From DAOVGU01 sp030637775 [NCBI: bacterium] (GTDB lineage: Bacteria; Ratteibacteria; UBA8468), in the NCBI GenBank assembly GCA_030637775.1, contig DAOWFY010000165.1:1-16978 (forward strand): DNA of 16,978 bases. The letters run 5' to 3'. A model generated the notes under the pieces. It was not told the origin of the DNA. It was given only the letters and a program-made list of their open reading frames with translations, and made no database searches. Made by a program: the position numbers and the translations under genes. Shown piece by piece: positions 5,918 through 15,920 of the stretch. Numbering within the stretch: the first letter of the stretch is position 1; the number at the start of each line of letters is the position of its first letter.

Positions 5918-7631
5918 TCTCTTCCGGGAAGAAAATGTCCTTGAGAATTCTTCCGGCAATTAATGCTGCCTCAGCGGAGCTGGCTGTATCAAGGAAAACA
6001 CAGAGGGAGATAATAGGATTTTCCCTGGGAGCATAACAGATGAATGCTCCGTGAGTTGGTAACTCCAACTCTGCTTTGGCAATTTGAGCTGTGCCGGTCT
6101 TTCCAGAGATAGATAGGCCGGTAACTTTGCTATTTCTACCTGTGCCTTGCTCCACAACATTGTAAAGACCTTCTTTCAATAGGGAAAGGTCTTCTTCGGG
6201 GATAAAGATCGAGCCTCGCAGATGTGGGGCGAAGGAAAGGATTTCATTTCCCAAAGGGTCAACAATTTCCTTTATAACCTCTGGTTGCCAGATGTTACCT
6301 CCATTAGCAATTGTCGCAATTAAACTTACCAATTGAATCGGAGTAACCAAAAGCGCTCCCTGACCGATGGAGAGGTTTAATGCTCCTCCTGATAGTCGAG
6401 GGGGAGGGATGGAGCCAGCCTTTTCTCCGGGTAGGTCAATTCCGGTAGGGGAGCCAAGCCCAAACCTCTTGCCATAGCTGAGAAGTCCCCTTGCTCCTAC
6501 CATTAACCCCACTTGACCAAAGAAGATATTGCAGGATTGGGGAAGAGCAGTATTAATGTCAATCCAGCCATGTTGTTTGTACTCCTCGGTTTCCCTATCC
6601 ACCCAGCAATGAAAGAGTCTGATTCGTTTCCCTTCCTGCACTTCCAATTCTCCTTTACATTCCAATTTATCGGTGGGAGTAATTACCCCTTTCTTTAAAG
6701 CGGAAAGTTCCGTGATAATCTTATAGATGGAACCTGGTGGGTAGCAGCCTTTGATCGCGCGGTTGAAGAAAGGCCTTCCCGGATGGAAAAGGTAAGGATC
6801 GATATCATCAGGATCAAAGGAAGGCTTACTCACCAGGGCCAGGATTTCACCATTCCTTGGATCCATGACCACGACACTTCCTCGATAACCACCGAGGTTC
6901 TCTGCAGAAGACTCCTGGATGGAGCGATCAATTGTTAAGATGATACTGTTACCCGGGGAAGACTCCTTCTTTCCTAAAATCCTTACCTTGTGGCCACGGG
7001 CATCAGTCTCTGCCCGAATACCCCCCCTTTTTCCTTTAAGGAGAGGGTCAAAGACCTTTTCTACTCCTTCTTTACCCACAAGGTCTCCTGCTTTTATCCT
7101 CTCTCCCTTTAATTTTTTCTTCTGCAGTTCTTCTGGACTTACCTCTCCCAGATAGCCAAGAAGATGGGCAGCTTTTTTGCCTAATTTATAGTCGCGCTTC
7201 AGTCCCACCTGGATGAAGATACCAGAAAGTTGCTCGCCTTTCTCTTCCACAAACGCCACCTCCCTTTCATTAAGATCTCTCTTAAGAGACTGTTGTTCAA
7301 AAGGGTTGGGGCAATCTTTTCTAAAAACGGATTCAATTTTTTCTTGGGGAATATTGATCACAGGGGCTAAAATGCTGCTGGCCTTTTGAGGATTTTTTAG
7401 ATCAAAGGGGACGAAGTAAAGATTAAAGCAGGGTCTATCTTTAACTAAAACTCTGCCATTTCTGTCGAAGATTGTCCCCCGGGGAATATCCAGACCGATG
7501 ATGCGTATAGAATTGAGGTCAGAGAGCCTCTGATAGCGGTAATATCGAAAGAGTTGGGTATAGATGAGTCCGCAGAAAAGAGGGATGAAGGAGAGATAGA
7601 TCAGGTGAGAAAGTCCTCTTATTCTATCCAT
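5910..7631 (-). CDS. mrdA: Penicillin-binding protein 2, class B transpeptidase
   Basis: Cross-links new glycan for cell elongation as partner of RodA. The 573 residues have a short cytoplasmic start, one membrane anchor (about 8-28), the dimerisation/pedestal motif PRGTIFDRNG (50-59), and a transpeptidase domain with SIYK (301-304; nucleophile Ser301, general base Lys304), SCN (366-368) and KTGT (511-514). The PPGS lead into the active site and the GQG (423-425) element are in place. At 573 residues it is shorter than E. coli PBP2 (about 630) but complete. The start overlaps the mreD stop by 8 nt, and the end overlaps rodA by 8 nt, so the three are probably translated together. It is a predicted beta-lactam target (mecillinam-type). 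Confidence 0.96.
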   Translation of the reverse strand: MDRIRGLSHLIYLSFIPLFCGLIYTQLFRYYRYQRLSDLNSIRIIGLDIPRGTIFDRNGRVLVKDRPCFNLYFVPFDLKNPQKASSILAPVINIPQEKIESVFRKDCPNPFEQQSLKRDLNEREVAFVEEKGEQLSGIFIQVGLKRDYKLGKKAAHLLGYLGEVSPEELQKKKLKGERIKAGDLVGKEGVEKVFDPLLKGKRGGIRAETDARGHKVRILGKKESSPGNSIILTIDRSIQESSAENLGGYRGSVVVMDPRNGEILALVSKPSFDPDDIDPYLFHPGRPFFNRAIKGCYPPGSIYKIITELSALKKGVITPTDKLECKGELEVQEGKRIRLFHCWVDRETEEYKQHGWIDINTALPQSCNIFFGQVGLMVGARGLLSYGKRFGLGSPTGIDLPGEKAGSIPPPRLSGGALNLSIGQGALLVTPIQLVSLIATIANGGNIWQPEVIKEIVDPLGNEILSFAPHLRGSIFIPEEDLSLLKEGLYNVVEQGTGRNSKVTGLSISGKTGTAQIAKAELELPTHGAFICYAPRENPIISLCVFLDTASSAEAALIAGRILKDIFFPEENE

Positions 7632-11311: not shown

Positions 11312-11320
11312 AACACTAAT

Positions 11321-11390
11321 GTGAGCACCCTGACCGAGCACCATCGGTGCGAGACCTGGTGAGCGTGCCGCCGAAGAAGATAGTCCGAAC
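11321..11390. other. GC-rich hairpin-bearing spacer
   Basis: Almost all of the 84 bp between the phosphohexomutase and yggS is more GC-rich than the surrounding DNA. It contains GCACC (11338-11342) and GGTGC (11346-11350) with a 3-nt loop, inside a weaker CACC...GGTG pairing (11325-11328 with 11358-11361). No T-run follows, so it is not a plain terminator. It may be a dispersed repeat. yggS starts 6 nt after it with no SD. Confidence 0.4.
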
Positions 11391-11395
11391 ATACG

Positions 11396-12055: not shown

Positions 12056-12827
12056 GTTTTGGCAGATAATAATAGGGTTATCTCTTTGCGGGCTTTTTCT
12101 TTTTGGTTGTCAGCCAAAGGCAAAGGTAGAAGAAAGGAAAATTCCCCAAACCTATATCTGCCATCAGAGCATAGGTAAAGTTAAGATTGATGGCATTCTC
12201 GATGAGAAGGATTGGCAGAAGGCAGAGCCAATAAACTTTTATCATTTAAGGAGAAAGGACCCCCAGGACTATAGAGAGCCAGAATCCCCTACCATTGGTA
12301 AGCTCCTCTGGGATAAGGATTATTTCTACGTTAGTTTTAAGGCTTATGATAAGGATATTTGGGGTTACTATACTGAAAGGGACGAAACTACCTACCGGGA
12401 GGACGTCTTGGAGATCTTTCTCAAGCCTGATGCCCAAAAGGCATCTTACTATAATTTTGAAATTAATGCTTTAGGCACGGTCTATGATGCATTCAATTTC
12501 AAAAGAGGTTTTGCTGGCGGGAGTCATCGCTGGAGTAAGTGGAACTGTGAAGGACTGAAGATTGGAATAAAGGTTAAAGGAAGTTTGAATAATTGGAAGG
12601 ATGAGGATGAATGCTGGGTCTTAGAGGTGGCCATTCCCTTCTCTGCCTTTAAGGAGATAACTCTTTCTCCCAAGATAGGGGATGAATGGTCCTTTGCCCT
12701 TTGCCGCTATGACTACTCGGTCTATCTAGAAGAGGGTCGTGAACTTTCTTCTTCCGCCAAACTTTCAAAATTGAATTTTCACCTCTGGGAAGATTATGAC
12801 CGTCTGCTCTTCTCTAAATTGCGCTAA
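12045..12827 (+). CDS. Lipoprotein with CBM9-like carbohydrate-binding domain
   Basis: A 260-residue exported lipoprotein: MMIRFW, hydrophobic core, then LFGC with acylated Cys22. Gln at +2 suggests release to an outer membrane if the cell has one. The rest is one beta-sandwich domain of the CBM9/DOMON-like type: KIDGILDEKDWQKAEPI (near 44-60), WDKDYFYVSFKAYDKDIW, EDVLEIFLKPD, YNFEINALGTVYDAF, WVLEVAIPFSAF and GDEWSFALCRYD. Such domains bind sugar ends or polysaccharides on secreted or surface proteins; no catalytic domain follows. Starts are possible at TTG 12033, ATG 12045 and ATG 12048; GGGGAAAGGG just upstream favours the ATGs. It overlaps the yggS end by 11 nt. The TAA is the beginning of the first 77-bp repeat. 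Confidence 0.82.
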   Translation: MMIRFWQIIIGLSLCGLFLFGCQPKAKVEERKIPQTYICHQSIGKVKIDGILDEKDWQKAEPINFYHLRRKDPQDYREPESPTIGKLLWDKDYFYVSFKAYDKDIWGYYTERDETTYREDVLEIFLKPDAQKASYYNFEINALGTVYDAFNFKRGFAGGSHRWSKWNCEGLKIGIKVKGSLNNWKDEDECWVLEVAIPFSAFKEITLSPKIGDEWSFALCRYDYSVYLEEGRELSSSAKLSKLNFHLWEDYDRLLFSKLR

Positions 12828-12968
12828 TCTATCTGCTTACTTCAGTAGCAATATGCGGAAAGATTAACTTCTTTGAGATTGCTCACAGCAACTTCCGCCA
12901 CTAATCTATTCTCTATCTTCAGTAGCAATATGCGGTAAGAATCGCTTCTCAGAAATTGCTCACAGCAA
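12824..12968. repeat. Tandem 77-bp structured repeat, two copies
   Basis: Copy 1 is 12824-12900 and copy 2 is 12901-12968 (cut short), in exact 77-bp register. Shared blocks are CTAATCTAT, TTCAGTAGCAATATGCGG and ATTGCTCACAGCAA. In each copy AGCAAT pairs with ATTGCT (12847-12852 with 12878-12883; 12924-12929 with 12955-12960). The middle differs between copies yet still folds: AAAGA/TCTTT in copy 1 and AGAA/TTCT in copy 2. Copy 1 contains the lipoprotein TAA. Copy 2 stops matching at 12969, exactly where the mnmG-like sequence begins. Only two copies and no spacer pattern, so not CRISPR. Confidence 0.8.
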
Positions 12969-13067
12969 ATGAATCAGCAGGATGGAGAGGTCGGCTTGCC
13001 GCAGACCGTCAATTCGGCAGGCCTGACCGAAGGAAAGAGGTCTTATCTTTGTTATTTTTTGACTTAG
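12960..13067 (-). pseudogene. Detached C-terminal fragment of mnmG
   Basis: On the minus strand about 35 codons read [15 protein letters not shown] then [14 protein letters not shown] and a TGA (12962-12960). This is the MnmG C-terminal helical end, and is 21 residues identical to the intact mnmG nearby from SFGQ through LLIHL. Upstream it decays (LSQKITKIRP versus REKLIKIEP) and meets a TAA at 13070-13068; there is no start. The IRP wording is the commoner one in the family, so this looks like the end of a real but different mnmG allele. It lies 1,072 bp from the matching part of the intact gene, with the nucleotidyltransferase cassette between. Confidence 0.82.
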
Positions 13068-13077
13068 TTATTATAAT
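13049..13077 (+). promoter_or_regulatory. Promoter of the nucleotidyltransferase cassette
   Basis: TTGTTA (13049-13054) and a consensus TATAAT (13072-13077) are spaced by 17 bp. The expected transcription start is near 13084, 10 nt before the GTG of the small first gene. The promoter overlaps the decayed end of the mnmG fragment, so it arrived with, or was created by, the cassette junction. Confidence 0.6.
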
Positions 13078-13093
13078 GTAGTATTCTTTTTGT

Positions 13094-13327
13094 GTGAAAA
13101 CTAAATCAGATTTTTTTGATGAGGATGAAGAATGGCTACAACTGCAGCCAGCCGAACGTCTTTTAGAAACAACCAAACTTTGGGCGATATATCGCCTGAT
13201 GGGAGGTAACCTTGATCCCGAACCCGATCCTCAAAGTCCTTTCTACATTTTTCAAACACCACGTTCGTTGTCTGTTAATCGGCGGACAAGCCTGCATTAT
13301 TTACGGAGCCAGCGAATTCAGTCGTGA
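13094..13327 (+). CDS. Small acidic protein upstream of the nucleotidyltransferase
   Basis: A 77-residue product from a GTG start about 10 nt after the predicted transcription start. The first 50 residues, with FFDEDEEWLQLQPAERLLE, TTKLWAIYRLMGG and NLDPEPDPQSPFY, resemble from memory small proteins encoded directly before Pol-beta-type nucleotidyltransferases in other bacteria (pattern ERLxExxKLWxxYxxLGGxLDPEPDPQSPF). The last 39 codons overlap the next gene by 116 nt in another frame and look like unconstrained sequence; the real protein may be conserved only up to about residue 52. No SD is seen. Function unknown; position and size would fit an antitoxin or accessory subunit, but that is inference. 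Only the GTG gives this frame a start ahead of the conserved part. Confidence 0.6.
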   Translation: MKTKSDFFDEDEEWLQLQPAERLLETTKLWAIYRLMGGNLDPEPDPQSPFYIFQTPRSLSVNRRTSLHYLRSQRIQS

Positions 13328-13958
13328 CTCAGATTTCATTGTTTTCTCCTCAACAGACAATTTGTGCAATTTACGCACGGCACTCACCAAACTAAAGGCA
13401 CGTCGTATTTATGTTCCTTTCTTGAACAAAAAATATTTAGACCGGGGGCACGCCTGCCATTTCCGCTGCTACGGTTCAGGTGTTAAGCATCTGCGGGTAG
13501 ATATTCTGGCAAAACTACGTGGCTGTGATAACTTTCCTTCCCTCTGGAATCGACGCTTTGAACTAAAGATACCATCTGGTCCAAAAATTCATGTTATCGG
13601 TCTTAGAGACTTGGTAATCTCAAAAAAAACACAACGTGATAAAGATTGGTTTATGCTCAGCCGCCTTGTAGACAACGATATAGCACTATATCGGAATACT
13701 TCAGATATACATAAGATTAACTGGTGGTTATGTGAATGTCGCAATCCAACTTATCTTATTGAATTATGCCAGAGGTATCCAGATTTTGCTCGACAACAAC
13801 TCTTGAATCGGCCTCTGCTTAAGTCTGCTATAAAGGTAGAGCAAAAGAAACTGGTACGACTGCTTGAAGGAGAAAAAGAAAAGGAGCAAGAGAAGGACAG
13901 GGCTTACTGGGAACCACTCAAGAAAGAACTTGAATTACTGCGGCATAAGATTTCCTAA
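13212..13958 (+). CDS. Pol-beta-superfamily nucleotidyltransferase
   Basis: A 248-residue soluble protein. LLIGGQACIIYGASEFSRDSDFIVF (21-45) is a nucleotidyltransferase P-loop-like GG followed by the metal-binding Asp39-x-Asp41. A third acidic residue, Asp98, sits in a strand (HLRVDIL), completing the expected triad. LRDLVISKKTQRDKDW lies in the helical C-terminal half, and the end is highly charged and probably coiled (about 215-248). Start: TTG at 13212 with a strong GGGAGGT (13201-13207) 4 nt upstream. The target (protein, RNA or small molecule) is unknown; relatives include AbiEii/MNT-type toxins and antitoxins. The gene forms a cassette with the overlapping small ORF and ends 28 bp from the convergent mnmG stop. 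Confidence 0.78.
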   Translation: MIPNPILKVLSTFFKHHVRCLLIGGQACIIYGASEFSRDSDFIVFSSTDNLCNLRTALTKLKARRIYVPFLNKKYLDRGHACHFRCYGSGVKHLRVDILAKLRGCDNFPSLWNRRFELKIPSGPKIHVIGLRDLVISKKTQRDKDWFMLSRLVDNDIALYRNTSDIHKINWWLCECRNPTYLIELCQRYPDFARQQLLNRPLLKSAIKVEQKKLVRLLEGEKEKEQEKDRAYWEPLKKELELLRHKIS

Positions 13959-13986
13959 TATCCTCAAGCTTACAAGCATTTATTCC

Positions 13987-15768
13987 TTAATCAAGAATCG
14001 ACAATCCAAAGCCTTTTTTAGGTTGCCTGGCCTTCTCCAGATGAATCAGCAAAATGGAGAGGTCGGCTTGCCGCAGACCGTCAATTCGGCAGGCTTGACC
14101 AAAGGAGGAGGGCTCTATTTTGATGAGTTTTTCCCTGGCTTCGCTAGATAAACCATAAAGATTTTTGTAATTAAAATCAATAGGAATTCTCTTCTTTTCG
14201 GCTGATTTGAATCTTTTAATGCTCTGGAGTTCCCTTTTGATATAACCTTCATACTTCAATTCAATCTCTACCTGTTGGAGAATATCTTTATTTAATCTTT
14301 TATCTATAAAATGAGTTTTTTTATGTTTTAACCTATTTAATTCTTCTGTAATTTTTCTTCTCTTCTCTTGCAGTTCTTCAAATTGCTCTTTTTTAATCAG
14401 CCCGAACTTGTATCCATACTCCATTAACCTGAGGTCGGCATTGTCCTGGCGCAAAAGGAGCCGGTACTCTGCCCGGGAGGTAAACATGCGGTAGGGTTCG
14501 GTAATCTCTTTGGTAACGAGGTCATCGATGAGAACTCCGAGATAAGCGGAAGCTCTGTCTAAAATAAAGGGAGGTTTTCCTTTTATTTTTAAAGCGCTAT
14601 TGATCCCCGCCATAATTCCCTGGCCGGCCGCCTCCTCATAGCCACTGGTGCCATTAATCTGGCCGGCAAGATAAAGATTTTCAACCAACTTTGTCTCTAA
14701 GGTGGCTTCAATCTGATGGGGAAAGACGAAGTCATATTCAATGGCGTAACCCGGCCTCATCATCGCGGCATTTTTTAAACCGGGTATGGTCGAAAGAGCC
14801 TCCAATTGGACATCGACCGGGATACTGGTAGCAAAGCCATTAAGGTAAATTTCCTCGGTGTTCTTTCCTTCCGGCTCTAAGAAGATCTGGTGTCGCGGCT
14901 TTTGGGGAAAGTTGACAATCTTTACCTCGATGGAAGGGCAATATCTTGGTCCAATTCCCTTGATCTGTCCCGTATATAAGGGAGCCCGGTTGAGATTTTC
15001 GCGGATGATTTTATGCGTTTTTTCATTGGTATAGGTGATATGACAGGGAATCTGAACTGTCCTGATTTTGTCGGTAGAGAAAGAAAATGGGGCGGGTATC
15101 TTGTCCCCCTTTTGAATCTCTACCTTGGAGAAGTCGATGGAGCCTTTATTGATTCTGGGTGGAGTGCCGGTCTTTAATCGGCCAATTTCAAAGCCGAGTT
15201 TCCTTAAGTTATCAGAAAGTTTTTCGCTCGGAAACTCTCCTGCTCTTCCGGCGGCTATCTTTAATTCACCAATATGGATAAGGCCTTTAAGGAATGTTCC
15301 CGTGGTGACAATAATTGCCTTTCCGTAGTAGAGAATCCGATTATGGGTAATTACCCCGATGCTCTTTTTTTTCTTCACTAAAATTTCTTCCACCGATTCC
15401 TGCTTGAGATCAAGATTTTTTTCTTTTTCTATCGTGTGCTTTAGAGAAAATTGGTAGCTCTTTTTGTCTGCCTGTGCCCTTGGTCCCCAGACCGCTGGTC
15501 CCCGGTTAGTATTAAGCATGCGGAACTGAATTCCGGTTTGATCAATATTTTTGGCCATCTCCCCACCGAGGGCATCAATCTCTCTCACCAGTTGTCCTTT
15601 GGCAACACCCCCAATCGCCGGATTGCATGACATCTGAGCCACAGTATCTAAATTAATGGTTAAAAGGAGGGTGATAAGTCCCATTCTGCTTGTGGCTAAT
15701 GCTGCCTCACACCCAGCATGGCCTGCCCCAACAACAATCACATCATACTTTTGTGGATAGGTAAACAT
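13987..15768 (-). CDS. mnmG: tRNA uridine-5-carboxymethylaminomethyl(34) synthesis enzyme MnmG
   Basis: FAD enzyme that, with MnmE, modifies the wobble uridine of tRNAs reading NNA/NNG codons. The 593 residues show the FAD loop GAGHAG (14-19), [12 protein letters not shown] (47-58) with catalytic Cys48, GPRYCPSIE (273-281) with Cys277, [16 protein letters not shown] (369-384) and [25 protein letters not shown] (424-448), then the MnmE/tRNA-binding helical C-terminus. The motif usually reading IEDKIVRF is IEVKIVNF here. After the conserved LLIHL end there are about 16 extra residues (to ILD) with no counterpart in the detached fragment, probably encoded by sequence brought in at the junction. 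No SD; the upstream 20 bp are very AT-rich. Confidence 0.96.
14041..14106. repeat. mnmG-end direct repeat, copy inside the intact gene
   Basis: These 66 bp match 12969-13034 in the same orientation at 62 positions. The four differences change third or synonymous first codon positions only (Ile ATT/ATC, Leu TTG/CTG, Gln CAA/CAG, Phe TTT/TTC in the minus-strand reading). Homology continues weakly for about 30 bp beyond 14106. The two copies bracket the nucleotidyltransferase cassette like the ends of an integrated element. Confidence 0.88.
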
Positions 15769-15786
15769 AATAAATATAAATTATTC

Positions 15787-15914
15787 ACAAACCACGCTAC
15801 TAAGAACAAGAAATTGCCGGAGACGACTGGGGTTTGTAAGCGAGTTGGCGGTTATGCCGCAGATACGATAGTATCGAGGAATAAGAAAGCCCGAGCGAAC
15901 AAATCCCAGTTGTC
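15787..15914 (-). promoter_or_regulatory. Structured leader upstream of mnmG with competing stems
   Basis: Two 16-nt arms (15822-15837 and 15899-15914) pair fully, 14 Watson-Crick plus 2 G-U, enclosing GCGG/CCGC (15848-15851 with 15857-15860) and GATAC/GTATC (15862-15866 with 15871-15875) hairpins. Seven bases of the same arm, 15831-15837, can instead pair with ACAAACC at 15787-15793. In the minus-strand transcript the middle segment therefore has a choice of an upstream or a downstream partner, about 20 nt before the mnmG ATG. This may be a regulatory leader, or a fossil repeat; I recognise no RNA family. Confidence 0.45.
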
Positions 15915-15920
15915 CCGGGC
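15881..15920 (-). terminator. Terminator of the OPT-like gene
   Basis: On the minus strand GCCCGG (15920-15915) pairs with TCGGGC (15894-15889), six pairs including one wobble, loop 20 nt, followed by TTTCTTAT (15888-15881). It starts directly after the stop codon of the membrane protein gene. It crosses the long leader stem, so the two folds exclude each other. Confidence 0.55.

Follow-up and report, generated by a model that had tools for sequence, protein, structure and literature searches.

The tRNA-modification gene mnmG (gidA) carries its 3′ end twice in this genome, both copies running in the same orientation from codon 546 onward at a spacing of 1,072 bp, and a two-gene cassette with a nucleotidyltransferase (NT)-like product lies between them, so that the order reads mnmG target gene, NT cassette, displaced mnmG fragment. 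We propose, at a probability of roughly 55%, that acquired DNA inserted at codon 545/546 together with a replacement 3′ end and displaced the old one. The window, i.e., the whole 16,978-nt stretch of DNA that was analyzed, is one contig (G000:C57) of a metagenome assembly, the genome amounting to 1.4 Mb in 177 contigs at 83.5% completeness. The nearest relatives compared were G001, of the same genus, and G002 and G003, of the same bacterial family; the phylum sample comprised 35 genomes, with the window's own (G000) among them. The features of the locus are the following:

13987–15768, minus strand: mnmG (gidA), full-length gene of a tRNA-modification enzyme, 593 aa, with GIDA and SAM_GIDA_C domains
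13990–14133, minus strand: 3′ end in current mnmG use, codons 546–593, homologous to the orphan end
12969–13061, minus strand: orphan mnmG 3′ end, no start, 31 residues followed by LL and a stop in the adjoining repeat, from the direct repeat, the profile match and a SAM_GIDA_C match
12982–13022 (= 14054–14094), no strand: shared identical 41-bp core, the longest identity between the ends
13049–13077, plus strand: promoter-like TTGTTA-17-TATAAT upstream of the cassette genes, 10/12 matches
13094–13327, plus strand: first cassette gene, encoding a small 77-aa protein, GTG start, from its translation
13212–13958, plus strand: second cassette gene, NT-like protein of 248 aa, TTG start, from a DUF6036 match below cut-off and from homologues
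12818–12970, no strand: two tandem copies of a dispersed repeat of ~79 bp that close off the orphan end, from repeat comparison

The arrangement described in the earlier note is real, orderly, and somewhat unusual. Comparison of direct repeats in the window yields a 95-nt repeat, 82% identical, that pairs 12966–13060 with 14038–14132 at a spacing of 1072 and agrees with the reported orientation and distance; the distal copy does lack a start, the full gene being the one at 13987–15768, and the small ORF and the NT gene sit between the ends, as had been claimed. With 17 of 93 positions differing between the two ends, a fresh duplication is rejected. The four differences in 66 bp that had been reported were counted again at 12969–13034 (positions 12980, 12981, 13023, and 13029), where all are transitions and all synonymous, an outcome with P of ~0.006 if changes are uniform and of 0.02 when only transitions are considered. 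The earlier note had held this pattern against a decaying pseudogene; the synonymy itself was confirmed, but taken alone it is compatible with a pseudogene, since the intact gene may be where all of the changes arose.

A further comparison concerns the orphan's upstream codons. Its homology to MnmG has a sharp limit at codon 546, nine codons beyond the extent previously given; the added stretch reads QKITKIRPL and reaches 13061. Scored on an MnmG profile built from up to 109 other MnmG proteins, the orphan's QKITKIRPL reaches 19.7 bits against 14.7 bits for EKLIKIEPS of the intact gene; it is the top 9-mer among the 33,904 in the six frames of the window, and none of 200,000 random 9-mers scores as high on the same profile. 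One of the nine residues, I for L, is itself unfavorable. Upstream of codon 546 the profile fit is lost at the orphan, where 13 of 15 positions score negative, three of them as stops. A SAM_GIDA_C match of 32.1 bits covers the orphan at 12975–13064. Since QKITKIRPL fits the profile and the positions upstream score negative, the orphan is authentic MnmG sequence from codon 546 on and a genuine MnmG end. A freely decaying pseudogene is rejected as unlikely, given that of the two ends it is the orphan that scores higher on the family profile.

The divergence between the ends is unevenly distributed. The nine codons at the upstream side of the orphan account for 13 differences in 27 bases, versus 4 of 66 in the next 22 codons, and the change point after 13034 was matched by 1 of 5000 permutations in a test that allows for position but not for the post hoc look. 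As a control we compared mnmG genes with one another, using 5,356 pairs, not mutually independent, from the 104 usable rows of 109: among the 26 pairs with at most eight differences in the second segment the largest first-segment count was six, and among 68 more diverged pairs (9–12 differences in the second segment) five reached at least 13 in the first. The two ends thus form a mosaic. The contrast IRPLS versus IEPSS, cited in the earlier note as a difference in amino acids upstream, is correct as such and turns out to be part of this step. The accompanying two-allele reading finds partial support: each end has the look of MnmG sequence under selection, and the mosaic is as would be expected of two alleles joined. 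A joint arrival of end and cassette in one event, the action of a site-specific recombinase, and mobilization in trans are conjectural.

Such a mosaic would also result from intrachromosomal conversion, and the same orientation, the 1-kb separation, and the 94% identity of the 66-bp core would fit a duplication of the mnmG end in place, with later capture of the cassette between the copies, conversion keeping the core alike while the rest drifts, and no foreign end involved. We regard this course as quite unlikely: that the orphan's nine codons fit MnmG better than those of the intact gene is unexpected for a free-drifting copy, the four core changes are all synonymous, and the scheme requires two events plus conversion.

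On its outer side the orphan is closed off by the dispersed repeats, the second of which abuts and slightly overlaps the orphan end and supplies its stop codon. Repeats had been noted at this place before, as 77-bp units; they are present, but as members of a dispersed family of ~79 bp whose second copy overlaps the orphan. This repeat family occurs in three of the 35 phylum genomes, namely in three of the four members of the bacterial family and in none of the 31 others. A CBM9 gene flanks the orphan, its nearest homologue in G002 (64%) lying in another context. A tRNA or known RNA family as the insertion target was searched for and rejected.

In G002, which belongs to a sister genus, mnmG is 87% identical to residues 1–545 of the window's gene, and the contig breaks off with the final base of codon 545, precisely at the start of the orphan homology. 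Contig breaks of this kind may signal that a population forks there into alternative sequences; the coincidence is suggestive, though it concerns one contig, was noticed post hoc, and may be chance. In G001, contig C104 ends inside the stop codon of a transporter gene, two bases past the last sense codon, a gene that lies ahead of mnmG both in G002 and in the window. The search for mnmG in G001 and G003 came back empty, as did that for the transporter gene in G003. These breaks, inside mnmG in G002 and just before its expected place in G001, together with the window being a single contig of 177 in a metagenome assembly, could alternatively point to a chimera, with the shared core as the place where sequences from two strains or species were fused. 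We hold an artifact of this kind to be very doubtful: as we reason it, cutting at both cores would still leave the NT cassette with mnmG pieces at both ends, and 41 bp is in general short for collapse by a modern assembler.

A wider survey places the duplication among mnmG ends at large. The SAM_GIDA_C domain was matched in 326 of 386 genomes and matched twice in seven of the 326, but just one of the 326, the window's genome, showed an mnmG fragment next to the full-length gene on one contig, in a search that misses fragments below threshold or off the contig. The second match lies on a different contig in G056, G077, G280, and G290, and far from the first in G203 (60 kb) and G341 (267 kb); in G077 it is partial and below the cut-off, and G280 has a 54-aa frame and a match at a contig end, neither case being decided. 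A common mnmG hotspot is accordingly rejected for this sample, as six of the seven double matches are without an adjacent fragment (G077 and G280 ambiguous).

The cassette itself is compact. The small ORF overlaps the NT gene by 116 bp and encodes a protein reading …EWLQLQPAER…LW…GGNLDPEPDPQSPF…, without a match in NCBIfam, Pfam, or PADLOC. The NT protein displays the motifs GGQAC…SRDSDF…GHACHFRC…RVDI…KKTQRDKDW; against DUF6036 (PF19502) it scores 20.3 bits, below the cut-off of 23.6, and is therefore not assigned to that family, and among the seven aligned NT proteins it is the only one to match DUF6036 at E 0.01 or better. It has no match in NCBIfam or PADLOC and one in PHROGs at E 0.25, and its structure predicted alone has a mean pLDDT of 36.8. 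A profile search of solved structures yielded poor matches to protein kinases (best E 0.0057), which we attribute to chance. The promoter-like element has its first hexamer inside the orphan end and is weak, with three such sites in the region versus 2.2 expected in shuffles. In G+C content cassette and mnmG are alike (41.5% and 43.5%). Besides the two genes, the interval between the ends contains one 95-aa frame (13864–14151) that overlaps them, and among these three frames there is no integrase gene, in keeping with the earlier statement that the window has none.

With two adjacent genes, one of them NT-type, the cassette resembles the MenAT, AbiE, and HEPN-MNT modules as far as excerpts from the literature describe them, yet it differs from them in that its NT protein lacks an NCBIfam or PADLOC match and stays below the DUF6036 cut-off, and in that the small partner matches no family. 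The two genes are arranged like a toxin–antitoxin or defense pair, and such a function is a guess from this layout.

Across genomes the distribution of the cassette is patchy and looks horizontal. The NT gene was matched at E 1e-12 or better in eight of the 386 genomes searched, the window's own included and a copy in pieces (G370) counted, and in two of the 35 phylum genomes. Homologues aligned from six other genomes are 48–60% identical and share an invariant GG, D41, D97, and KKTQRDKDW. In all seven aligned loci the NT gene has this small ORF ahead of it, complete with the LW and QSPF motifs, and the neighbors, named from their translations, are unlike: mnmE in G014, leuD in G285, tex in G122, and glyA, downstream, in G217. 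The small ORF and the NT gene thus appear to travel together between lineages. There was no gene-end duplication at the NT loci of G014, G122, G217, and G285 within 900 bp on each side, and none at those of G072 and G376, where the right flanks extend for only 218 bp and 20 bp, so the cassette is apparently not generally carried with a gene end; in G285 its two flanks carry one copy each of a simple intergenic repeat (40 bp at 85%). Plasmid and phage records contained no match to the NT protein at E 1e-5, nor did IMG/VR yield a close relative, and an origin as a phage or plasmid cassette is thus not supported.

These observations bear on the form of insertion. An integrase-less element whose attP contained an mnmG 3′ end could have been integrated by an integrase acting in trans, with the 41-bp core as the place of crossover; the gene would have been made whole again, and the orphan would be the other att site. 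The footprint is that of target-restoring islands, as far as excerpts from PMC4383910 and PMC12884075 go. The identical 41-bp core is embedded in divergent sequence, G002's contig ends at the same codon, and tyrosine integrases occur in the bacterial family, with two PF00589 matches in G000, eight in G001, one in G002, and five in G003. The two in G000, however, lie on other contigs, in frames of 292 and 296 aa, which is presumably the size of Xer proteins, in an assembly 83.5% complete; the proposed crossover has mnmG-like sequence to its left and to its right, which a simple attP would not show; the NT loci elsewhere are without att-like gene-end repeats; and IMG/VR yielded neither an exact match to the 34-bp core nor a close relative of the mnmG tail. 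We therefore judge site-specific integration unlikely. Recombination of the incoming DNA is in our view, with modest confidence, more likely than a dedicated integrase, because the cassette lacks one and both PF00589 matches of G000 lie elsewhere in frames of Xer size.

In the insertion that we favor, the incoming DNA would have consisted of the horizontally acquired two-gene cassette of ~1.07 kb and a substitute mnmG 3′ end (codons 546–593), arriving jointly. It may have come from a related bacterium and entered the codon 545/546 boundary, with the mnmG end providing homology at one flank and little or none available at the other. The mnmG frame would then consist of the 545 native codons followed by the 48 substitute ones, keeping the enzyme, while the old 3′ end would be stranded as the orphan, flanked by the cassette and by the dispersed repeats; the near identity of the 66-bp core would be best explained if the two ends underwent exchange or gene conversion, either at the time of insertion or later. 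We take the orphan to be the old end because it lies closer to the consensus of the MnmG family and adjoins repeats limited to this bacterial family, as would be expected of a native end. Possibly the crossover fell inside the core instead, in which case the orphan would be a hybrid. Points that weigh against this scheme are the similar G+C of cassette and mnmG, the missing gene-end duplications at the other NT loci, the more diverged mnmG pairs that reach an equal first-segment count, the unfavorable residue of the orphan, and, as regards recombination in place of a dedicated integrase, the tyrosine integrase matches, more numerous in G001 (8) and G003 (5) than in G000 (2). A bolder version, to which we give little credence, holds that codon 545/546 is a recurrent, base-precise entry point in the bacterial family for integrase-less cassettes of ~1 kb that bring their own mnmG 3′ ends, that populations would carry alternative mnmG termini, and that the G002 contig end would reflect the same polymorphism.

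How does the locus relate to known systems? By the Islander principle, in excerpts from PMC4383910, a regenerated target and a displaced fragment mark a genomic island, and islands also enter protein-coding genes, often reconstituting them (PMC12884075, likewise in excerpts). Like the gene-restoring islands of the former source, the mnmG locus combines an intact target, foreign DNA, and a displaced target fragment, the latter in the same orientation as the target; it differs from them in its length of ~1 kb only, in the missing integrase, and in the mnmG homology on both sides of any core crossover. Nor is the same kind of attachment site seen elsewhere, four NT loci with full flanks and one with a short flank being without a gene-end duplication. 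SGI1 and its relatives, in the 3′ end of trmE (mnmE), likewise hit the end of a conserved tRNA-modification gene: as partially available sources have it, the site that SGI1 enters is located 18 bp from the end of trmE (PMC6531882), and SGI1 is an integrative-mobilizable element of 42.4 kb (PMC3285670). The mnmG cassette, by comparison, has a different target, met 48 codons from its end, and two small genes only; with a target other than trmE and neither int nor mobilization genes, it falls outside the SGI1-like elements. Homology-facilitated illegitimate recombination, for its part, denotes a recombination route and no element. A report of mnmG or gidA as an attachment site was not found in the literature searched, itself available in part, which is no proof of absence from print. 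Together, these comparisons describe an unusually small variant of a known insertion style.

Gene-end replacement is familiar from islands that are large and encode an integrase. At mnmG this footprint encloses just ~1 kb, in which there are two genes but no recombinase. If the insertion is real and recurrent, conserved gene ends would be landing places for very small, defense-like cassettes, and mosaic gene ends could reveal such insertions in metagenomes in which no integrase remains. If it was instead a single recombination accident, the locus would still be a clear example of a conserved enzyme that received a substituted C-terminus.

In the window, the second, startless mnmG 3′ end (12969-13061) takes its stop codon from a dispersed repeat that lies beside it, and the features considered here are as follows.

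12818-12970: window copies of a dispersed, in places tandem, ~79-bp repeat of the form ATTGCGCTACT...AGTAGCAATATGCGG...CTCACAGCAACT
13094-13327: small ORF preceding and overlapping the nucleotidyltransferase-like gene, conserved in 7/7 loci
15817-15918: long imperfect hairpin between the transporter gene and mnmG, from RNA folding of the + strand

A sequence scan, with at most 26 candidates scored per genome, returned 30, 26 and 28 matches to the ~79-bp repeat in the window's own genome, its congener G001 and the same-family genome G003, and none in the remaining 32 genomes of the phylum. Within the repeat an inner arm pairs with the first arm, and 6 of 29 copies have both partners of one pair changed; the consensus folds with a weak energy of -2.5 kcal/mol.

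The mnmG locus is broken in both G001 and G002, a further member of the family: the G001 contig (C104) ends, at its first bases (locus L206), two bases past the transporter gene's last sense codon and just short of the expected mnmG position, and the G002 contig stops within mnmG itself.

The + strand RNA of the hairpin folds at -53 kcal/mol (z -5.97), a value equalled by 0 of 200 shuffles, and no Rfam match was found at the gathering score. Separately, the intergenic region at 11318-11392, which is rich in G+C and contains short inverted repeats, comes after a gene that we take by inspection to be phosphomannomutase-like; the folding of this region has no clear advantage over shuffles (z -1.34).

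Searches of NCBIfam, Pfam and PADLOC gave no match for the small ORF, which is a candidate partner or antitoxin. In G285, where the cassette occupies a locus unrelated to mnmG (L187, contig C11; nucleotidyltransferase-like gene at 6293-7051), it is flanked by two copies of a simple intergenic repeat; these are GACATTAGAC-like, 40 bp long and 85% identical, and may represent another entry route for the cassette.
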